A program made the translations under genes and the position numbers. From contig JACPFF010000027.1 of the NCBI GenBank assembly GCA_016183065.1, positions 1-64,000 on the forward strand: DNA of 64,000 bases, written 5' to 3'. Below are positions 49,515 to 51,281 of this stretch, in pieces. This DNA comes from Deltaproteobacteria bacterium. Its GTDB lineage: Bacteria; UBA10199; GCA-002796325; JACPFF01. The notes beneath the pieces were generated by a model. That model did no database searches, was not told where the DNA came from, and saw only the letters and a program-made list of their open reading frames with translations. Position 1 is the first letter of the stretch. Each line of letters starts with the position of its first letter.

Positions 49515-49663
49515 ATGTGGTCGTTTCTCACGTGTGGATCGGTATCACCGCAAGATCAAGAACGGCGCCAGCTGGCGCCGCATCTTTCCAGAAAATCGTA
49601 ACAAGAAAAACTCCAGAAGTAAAGGAAAATTAAAGGGAAATTCGGGCGTATCTTTCCTATTGT

Positions 49664-49942
49664 GCGCACGACGCACCCCTCACATTTTGGCGTACCGCCT
49701 CGGGTTTTGAAGTCGATCTCATTATTGGGGACCTGGATGTGGCCATTGAGTTCAAATCGGCAAAAAAGATCCTTGCCAATCATTTAAAGGGTATCCGTGC
49801 GTTCCATGAAGAACATCGGGCCAGGCGATTACTCGTCGTCTCCTGTGATCCGGGAGTCCGAAAAACAGGCGAGGGCATTGAACTGATGCATTGGCAGACG
49901 TTTTGCCGCCAACTGTGGAAAGGCGCGATTGTTCAATCATGA
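49664..49942 (+). pseudogene. C-terminal remnant of a DUF4143 ATPase
   Basis: In one frame, FWRTASGFEVDLIIGD, then AIEFKSAKKI, GIRAFHEEH and a final WKG match the C-terminal domain of the intact protein at 7006-8166 (for example YFRTENGVEVDLVIE, IEIKS, RSFHEEF). The ATPase part is missing. The rest of the 49515-50022 gap has no other gene that I can see. Confidence 0.7.
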
Positions 49943-49987
49943 TTGCCGCCGTTCCGCAGCAGAATTGAGCACAAATTGTAATGGTAA

Positions 49988-50015
49988 TTGACAATTATAC
50001 AAATAAATATACAAT
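49988..50015 (+). promoter_or_regulatory. Promoter of the nucleotidyltransferase gene (leaderless)
   Basis: TTGACA (49988-49993), 16 bases, TACAAT (50010-50015). The -10 ends seven bases before the ATG and there is no Shine-Dalgarno, so transcription should start at or next to the start codon. The segment is strongly AT-rich. Confidence 0.65.
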
Positions 50016-50022
50016 TTAGGCA

Positions 50023-50547
50023 ATGAATAAAGAAATCATGTTATTAGCACTCAAGTCATTGGACCATCATCTTGATGTCCCCACGAAATTATTGATTGGC
50101 GGCGGCGCGGCGATGCTCCTCGCCTACGGTTTTCCGGTGTCCACTCTGGATATCGATGGCCTTGTTTTCCAGAGTGACATCACGCAGGTTGAACTCGATC
50201 CGCTTGTGAAGGCGGTCGCGAAAGAACACGCGCTCCCCGCGGACTGGCTCAATAGTTATTTCAATACGTTTCTCTTTGCATTGCCACGCGATTATGGCTC
50301 GCGACTGTTCCAGATTTTTTCCGGCCAACAGCTCACGGTCTATGCGCTGAGCATGGAAGATTTGCTGGTCCTGAAGTGCTTTGCCGGTCGCCAAAAGGAT
50401 GTGGGCCATGCCCGTGCCCTGCTCCGGAAGATCCCCGATTACCGTATTGTCGAAGATCATTTACATGCCGCACGAGACCGAAATCTTCCGGGAGCAGAGG
50501 CGGCGATCACCTTTTTTGAAGACCTGCTCGAAGATGTAGGGATATAA
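50023..50547 (+). CDS. DUF6036/AbiEii-like nucleotidyltransferase
   Basis: 174 aa. Nucleotidyltransferase-fold signs: GGGAAMLLAYGFPVSTLDIDGLVF (residues about 26-49), with the Gly loop and D-x-D metal pair, and a later VLKCFAGRQKDVGHAR helix typical of the DUF6036 and AbiEii groups. Such proteins occur as toxins or antitoxins that transfer nucleotides to tRNA or protein. The partner gene follows after two bases. It sits in an island that separates recF from gyrB. Whether it is the toxin or the antitoxin cannot be told from sequence. Confidence 0.75.
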   Translation: MNKEIMLLALKSLDHHLDVPTKLLIGGGAAMLLAYGFPVSTLDIDGLVFQSDITQVELDPLVKAVAKEHALPADWLNSYFNTFLFALPRDYGSRLFQIFSGQQLTVYALSMEDLLVLKCFAGRQKDVGHARALLRKIPDYRIVEDHLHAARDRNLPGAEAAITFFEDLLEDVGI

Positions 50548-50549
50548 TT

Positions 50550-51281
50550 GTGCATCTCACGATTCCGTCTGCTGCAGATCTAACCCATCTCTACTACGAA
50601 CTCGGTCGCCTCGGGGTTCGCACTGTTGGCCAACCGATTCCATGGCAATTTTCGCCGAAAAACGCGGAGGAACTGCTGGCCCTCGCGGCAGATTGTTCGC
50701 GCTACGATCCTCGTCTCTTCGATGCATTGGTGGAATTTCTCTGGCGCTCGTGGTCGACCTTTCATCCGGTACGACTTCGCCGGGCCATGGCCACAATGTG
50801 GACCCCACAGGTTTTTGGTGTCCTTGCGGAATTTTTTCACGCTCGAACATCCGATCGTGAGTGTCACTACTATTACGAATATCTTCTTCGGGGGTATGCC
50901 AGGGTTCCCTATCAGTTTTTCTTCCACTTCCTCCACGGACCAGGAACGGCCAGCGCTCAGCGTACAGCAGAAGAATCCCTGGCAGAATTTCGGCGGTGGG
51001 GATTTTTGGCGACAGAGCGACCGATCATCGATCAACGGGAAAAAACGACATGTGGAAGATATGAACCTGAAACGCGGTCACGTATTCTTCATCGACTATT
51101 GCACAGAACAAACGTCATTACGACCGATCAATATCTGACCGCTCTTGATCACTCTATCTCACGCCAGCAGGCCGTGCTCGATCTGCGTCGGTATCCAGGG
51201 CTTCAGCAGAGAGGGCACGGTCGTGGGGCGCGATGGCAACGTGGCCACCCGTCACGGTCACCGTCTCCCCGCCGGGGATAG
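50550..51281 (+). CDS. Unknown partner of the nucleotidyltransferase
   Basis: 243 aa as read. It starts at GTG, with AGGGA seven bases upstream and inside the end of the preceding gene. No recognised domain: mostly helical, rich in Tyr, Phe, His and Arg, with FHPVRLRRAMATMWTPQVFGVLAEFFH and a C-terminal NVITTDQYLTALDHSISRQQ that might be a small winged-helix. From about 51154 the frame runs antisense to recF and becomes Arg/Gly/His-rich, so the last ~42 residues are probably not native. The gene and its partner form a two-gene module of TA-like design. Confidence 0.55.
   Translation: MHLTIPSAADLTHLYYELGRLGVRTVGQPIPWQFSPKNAEELLALAADCSRYDPRLFDALVEFLWRSWSTFHPVRLRRAMATMWTPQVFGVLAEFFHARTSDRECHYYYEYLLRGYARVPYQFFFHFLHGPGTASAQRTAEESLAEFRRWGFLATERPIIDQREKTTCGRYEPETRSRILHRLLHRTNVITTDQYLTALDHSISRQQAVLDLRRYPGLQQRGHGRGARWQRGHPSRSPSPRRG

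Follow-up and report, generated by a model that had tools for sequence, protein, structure and literature searches.

A DUF6036 nucleotidyltransferase and an unnamed winged-helix partner between recF and gyrB form a probable toxin-antitoxin pair

Insertion between recF and gyrB

What are the two tandem genes that separate recF from gyrB in this deltaproteobacterial genome, and what would they do for the cell? In the window (the whole 64,000-nucleotide stretch analysed here, positions 1 to 64,000 of contig JACPFF010000027.1), gyrB (47079-49514, minus strand) starts at 49514 and recF (51154-52311, minus strand) has its stop at 51154, which leaves 1,639 bp between them. The dnaN-recF-gyrB order is unbroken in three relatives, where the ends of recF and gyrB are separated by about 100 bp in G002, by a short distance in G012 and by at most a few hundred bp in G007. 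The window therefore holds a 1.64-kb insertion, as proposed in an earlier note on this DNA. The empty site is seen in three genomes only, since a protein search recovers recF in 3 of the 10 relatives searched; in the other seven (G001, G003-G006, G016 and G040) divergence, assembly gaps or real absence could each explain why that search does not recover it. The insertion comprises the tail of a DUF4143 ATPase gene, an intact gene for a DUF6036 nucleotidyltransferase (NTase) and an intact partner gene. G+C content is 44–51% across the remnant and the promoter and 52–66% in the flanking genes.

The 3' ends of recF and the partner gene overlap in antisense. RecF of the three relatives ends at a point corresponding to about residue 358 of the window RecF and lacks the last ~27 residues of the latter (51154-51237, minus strand, from the RecF alignment); recF therefore acquired a new tail and stop codon through the insertion. 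This tail is encoded on the strand opposite to the last part of the partner's winged helix, and the partner reading frame extends about 12 residues beyond its conserved end, into recF antisense. The cassette would thus have landed at the recF 3' end, with the insertion boundary at about 51237-51245 and with recF and the partner gene each ending within the other. Neither gyrB nor recF is found in the 1.5–5 kb flanks of the homologous loci (L003-L021, and by ORF clustering L022-L033). A role tied to gyrase or oriC is rejected because these loci are located elsewhere, and the position beside oriC is incidental.

The remnant (49634-49942, plus strand) consists of ~100 codons from the 3' end of a DUF4143 (AAA_14-type) ATPase gene that has lost its 5' part. 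Positions 49634-49939 match the C-terminal end of PF13635 (profile positions 117-159/160) with an E-value of 1.1e-4, below the curated cut-off, and share 34% identity over 76 columns (E 2.5e-13) with an intact AAA_14/DUF4143 ATPase gene at 7000-8166 (plus strand) of the window, in agreement with the original assignment. In G043 a partner gene that stands alone is convergent with a DUF4143-type ATPase gene (L025:3358-5233), an echo of the window remnant that may be chance.

Nucleotidyltransferase fold and active site

The first intact gene (50023-50547, plus strand) encodes a 174-residue NTase, the predicted toxin. Its membership in DUF6036, already recognized from the sequence, is confirmed by PF19502 (E 8.5e-13; 48.9 bits against a curated cut-off of 23.6). 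DUF6036 is present in 107 of 290 genomes sampled, over a third, and yet Pfam gives no function for it and the literature searched does not mention it. The AlphaFold model has a pLDDT of 95. Its top VIA-align match is MenT1 in the MenAT1 complex (8an5_A), with a Z-score of 10.0 and an rmsd of 4.5 over 162 of 174 residues, followed by MenT1 alone (Z 9.4), aminoglycoside nucleotidyltransferases (up to 8.7), MenT3 (8.1) and MenT4 (7.4). Foldseek alone gives no significant match for this model (best E 0.065) and no sequence similarity to MenT1 is detectable; the link to MenT therefore rests on structural alignment, full-length coverage and the motif pattern. Residues 57-195 of 6y8q_A, an entry titled AbiEi antitoxin, also match the NTase model (Z 8.1, 125 residues), reflecting either an antitoxin domain with a toxin-like fold or a label issue.

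The motif residues are T41-x-D43-x-D45, K118, R123, D126 and H129. Among 20 close NTases, T41, D45, K118 and H129 are constant, and motif IV reads K/R-D-x-x-H in every one. In the hG[GS] and DhD motifs, Gly-Gly is invariant like D45, while D43 is kept in 19 of the 20 and replaced by Tyr in one (L015). In MenT1, residues T39, D41, D43, K137, R146, D149 and D152 have been described, with T39, D41, K137 and D152 as the catalytic set (PMC10435456, PMC11375011 for the former; PMC10435456 for the latter), and toxicity is abolished by D41A and by K137A (PMC10435456, PMC11375011). By motif spacing the seven residues correspond to T41, D43, D45, K118, R123, D126 and H129. The T/S-x-D-x-D motif, the Lys, the Arg and the first acidic residue of motif IV are therefore at matching positions, whereas the catalytic set is only partly kept: T41, D43 and K118 are present, but an invariant His replaces D152. 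The modelled fold is of the MenT/AbiEii type and keeps nearly all catalytic motif residues.

Partner protein

The partner gene (50550-51281, plus strand) is an ORF of 243 residues that begins with GTG two bases past the NTase stop codon, with AGGGA upstream of the GTG as its own ribosome-binding site, in line with the earlier note. Its product is predicted to be both antitoxin and autorepressor. Eighteen full-length homologues align end to end with 30–47% identity, and the frame is thus conserved as coding. The gene had been thought to end at 51150; this has to be corrected, as conserved homology continues to residue 231 (about 51242). The AlphaFold model has an overall pLDDT of 80; confidence is high in residues 1-117 and 171-231 but low in residues 120-170. 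In the predicted architecture, residues 1-117 are helical, residues 120-170 are not confidently modelled and residues 171-231 form a winged helix (51060-51242, plus strand). The latter is defined by the alignment, the model and structural matches over residues 171-233, and contains the residues that are invariant among the 20 aligned members (R176, Y195, R205-Q206-Q207 and D211). This C-terminal part matches known winged helices with Z-scores up to 8.8 over 60 residues, and the Foldseek and VIA matches of the whole model cover mainly this domain. Searches against Pfam, NCBIfam, PADLOC, PHROGs and PDB sequences give only chance-level or winged-helix matches and no named family, so the impression that the family is unfamiliar holds.

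Conservation and descent of the pair

The sample of 46 genomes covers the class to which the window belongs, and in this collection class and phylum coincide. By protein search the partner is present in 20 of them, with one copy per genome, that of G001 being truncated; in a contig scan, a single-protein query gave no matches and an alignment-based query gave 12. The close-NTase profile finds 16 of the 46 genomes at E-values below 1e-70, and everything else is above 1e-28. All 16 close NTases are directly upstream of the partner, at gaps of -8 to +10 nt, and most partner homologues that have an NTase keep this tight spacing. Four further pairs occur in other records (L027, L029, L031 and L032), one of them, also seen as G176/L101, outside the phylum; there too the NTase is upstream, and wherever both genes are present the NTase gene is first. 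The distances of NTases and partners correlate (r 0.65; none of 2000 permutations as high).

Three intact partners stand alone, with no NTase adjacent (G029, G034 and G043), and close NTases never do. Such an asymmetry would be expected of an NTase that does harm on its own and a partner that does none. It also bears on whether the roles might be reversed. HEPN-MNT (type VII) systems likewise pair a small protein of NTase fold with a helical protein encoded next to it, and in them MNT-type NTases serve as antitoxins. By this precedent the partner would act as toxin, perhaps as an RNase, and be modified by the NTase as its antitoxin; the order of NTase and then partner is compatible with such an arrangement. 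However, the C-terminal domain of the partner is a predicted winged helix, and none of the 20 aligned partners shows an invariant or near-invariant His, so the HEPN R-x4-6-H motif is absent. The NTase model matches a HEPN-MNT complex chain only weakly (Z 3.8, 91 residues) compared with Z 10.0 for MenT, and it is the partner rather than the close NTase that is found alone. We give the reversed assignment very little credence.

Neighboring genes vary from genome to genome, with ordinary housekeeping genes predominating around the close pairs, while in the partner tree genomes of one family mostly fall together (f3, f5 with f7, f12 and f14). Because the tree follows host families despite the differing neighbors, descent of the pair looks mainly vertical, with loss and relocation. 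The window partner is on a long branch apart from members of its own order, and although the support is not decisive, the window copy may have been acquired by transfer. No copies were found on plasmids, phages or viral contigs, and phage- or plasmid-borne mobility therefore has no support. The earlier note had counted the association with a mobile-type remnant as evidence for a toxin-antitoxin or defence system. That argument falls, because the remnant is not common to the other examined copies, none of which was found on such elements, and because the tree mostly follows host families.

The truncated DUF4143 neighbor and the long partner branch, together with a degenerate operator (see below), could also indicate an inert, decaying cassette that has no function in the window genome, and G001, from the window's own family, keeps only a truncated partner. 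In contrast, both window genes are full length, and the motif positions of the close NTases and the whole winged helix are intact, making such decay highly improbable. The truncated gene of G001 (C-terminal 111 residues, L102:1904-2239) is beside an oxidoreductase gene and not beside recF.

Promoter and palindromic operator

In most copies of the pair the promoter carries the palindrome TTGACTAnTAGTCAA or a near match, and the first half of this putative operator doubles as the -35 box. The start codon is often 20–23 nt beyond the operator, near the expected transcription start, suggesting that the message is likely leaderless in the family. In the window the promoter and operator occupy 49988-50015 (plus strand). 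The promoter reads TTGACA - 16 nt - TACAAT, an 11/12 match, and since the ATG is only 7 nt past the -10 box, this transcript too is probably leaderless. The operator copy, TTGACAATTATACAA at 49988-50002, is degenerate with an 11/14 match. Strict operator matches beat shuffled sequences (p 0.01 or less) in 16 of 23 promoters, and several of the remaining seven have two half sites at altered spacing. The consensus was derived from the same promoters, so the shuffle statistics are partly circular, but the uniqueness of the site in whole genomes is not. The exact 14-mer occurs in 5 of 46 genomes, and in four of them (G003, G007, G009 and G034) solely at this promoter. The fifth, G006, has no pair and carries one orphan exact operator (L064:1501-1514; G006:C81:13837), possibly a scar of pair loss. 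Among the solo partners, G034 has an exact site, G029 a partial site and G043 at most one half site. Since the operator overlaps the -35 box and persists, wholly or partly, at solo partners, the partner is probably an autorepressor.

The same data raise the possibility of a regulatory pair free of any toxin, in which the winged-helix partner would control transcription of other genes, with the NTase carrying out some modification or sensing step for it. Single copies, largely vertical inheritance and solo partners that retain the operator wholly or in part would fit such a role. But the four genomes with an exact operator at this promoter have no second one, and no regulon is thus seen; the presence of the pair is patchy (20 of 46) and its neighborhoods are scattered. 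We regard a purely regulatory pair as unlikely.

Distant partners of DUF6036 nucleotidyltransferases

Structure prediction and a remote homology search, both suggested in the earlier note, yield the C-terminal winged helix described above and a link to a larger protein family. Outside the phylum, the partner profile weakly matches six proteins of 339–373 residues. Five of these are directly downstream of a DUF6036-like NTase; for the sixth (L100), the NTase is not picked by a simple ORF caller. By hhalign, the partner matches this 330–370-residue family with a probability of 96% and an E-value of 3.8e-9 over 209 columns that span the N-terminal domain and the winged helix. The match to a family of ~250 residues is weaker (71%, E 3.7e-5). 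His129 is common to the NTases of the 330–370-residue partners and is Asp in the others, although the local alignment of that group is uncertain. In 8 of 14 extra loci within the window's phylum (L050, L051, L054, L056, L057, L061, L062 and L063), one of these longer or shorter partners comes after a distant NTase; L056 and L057 apparently represent one gene type found in two genomes. The earlier note had staked its reading on homologues of the partner next to other DUF6036 genes, and these are found both in the phylum and in other lineages.

In other loci an HTH_3 regulator is upstream of the DUF6036 NTase instead (L053, L055, L104 and L109). Regulators of ~200 residues with the motif 'LTLSHWLAGRQ' are directly upstream of DUF6036 genes in L112, L113, L114 and L119; the one that was scanned has no Pfam family. 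Across DUF6036 loci the NTase thus appears constant and its DNA-binding partners interchangeable.

Two distant pairs adjoin hsdM, one between the type I restriction genes hsdM and hsdS (L096, 856-5267) and the other directly after hsdM near a contig end (L098, 867-3986). As AbiE NTase pairs confer phage resistance (PMC3985639), a toxin-antitoxin pair of this kind could be selected for phage defence by abortive infection rather than for maintenance or stress control. The close pairs, however, have mostly housekeeping neighbors, and none is on phages, plasmids or viral contigs. Selection for defence, a special case of the toxin-antitoxin explanation, is conceivable but rather doubtful. From the initial proposal of a toxin-antitoxin or defence system, the toxin-antitoxin-like two-gene unit stands, and the defence part draws only on the distant homologues beside type I restriction genes.

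Relation to MenAT and AbiE

MenAT1 of M. tuberculosis, with its DUF1814 NTase toxin, resembles the pair in the near-full-length NTase fold and the two-gene unit, but its antitoxin MenA1 has 68 residues, compared with ~230 residues and a winged helix in the partner. AbiE (AbiEi-AbiEii; COG5340-COG2253; type IV) also combines an NTase with a two-domain winged-helix protein and inverted repeats in the promoter. In AbiE the regulator gene is first and the winged helix is N-terminal in the antitoxin (COG5340) (PMC3985639), whereas here the NTase is first and the predicted winged helix is C-terminal. Motif IV is +DxxH here and +DxxD in AbiE. The window NTase has no Pfam match to the AbiEii profile (PF08843), and the PADLOC AbiEii match (E 0.036) is not above the cut-off. 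Gene order, profile, motif IV and place of the winged helix all differ; the pair is therefore not a member of AbiE.

Proposed mechanism and significance

We conclude that the two genes probably form a MenAT/AbiE-like NTase toxin-antitoxin system with reversed gene order and an antitoxin of an unnamed superfamily, for which toxicity and its neutralisation are predicted. The strongest argument is indirect: the NTase stays constant while its DNA-binding partners are of several unrelated kinds, and partners occur alone but close NTases do not. Several observations speak against a toxin-antitoxin system. The residue aligned with the essential D152 of MenT1 is an invariant His, and D43 is Tyr in L015. 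Addiction modules less typically occur as a single copy per genome with mostly vertical descent. AbiE has the toxin gene second instead of first, the window operator is degenerate (11/14), and in several promoters the site is recognizable only at a changed spacing.

In the mechanism we propose, the partner would bind the promoter palindrome and repress its own operon, and would also neutralise the NTase. Once the partner became scarce, the NTase would stop growth by adding nucleotides to an acceptor. This is most likely the 3' ends of tRNA, to which MenT toxins add nucleotides. Neutralisation may occur by binding, by self-phosphorylation at the invariant T41 (the position of T39 in MenT1), or by both. 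In AbiE, toxicity is neutralised without a toxin-antitoxin complex.

More tentatively, and at somewhat less than even odds in our judgment, the partner may found an undescribed antitoxin superfamily, with a helical N-terminal domain and a winged helix in ~230, 250 or 340 residues, that pairs with DUF6036-type NTases across lineages, sometimes beside type I restriction genes; NTases in which His replaces the D152 of MenT may at the same time be active toxins with altered active-site chemistry or target. DUF6036 with interchangeable DNA-binding partners, one superfamily of which is unnamed in the libraries searched, would turn genes that lack an assigned function into testable toxin-antitoxin candidates. 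An invariant Thr at the MenT phosphorylation site, combined with a wholly different partner, would allow the generality of antitoxin-induced self-phosphorylation to be tested independently.
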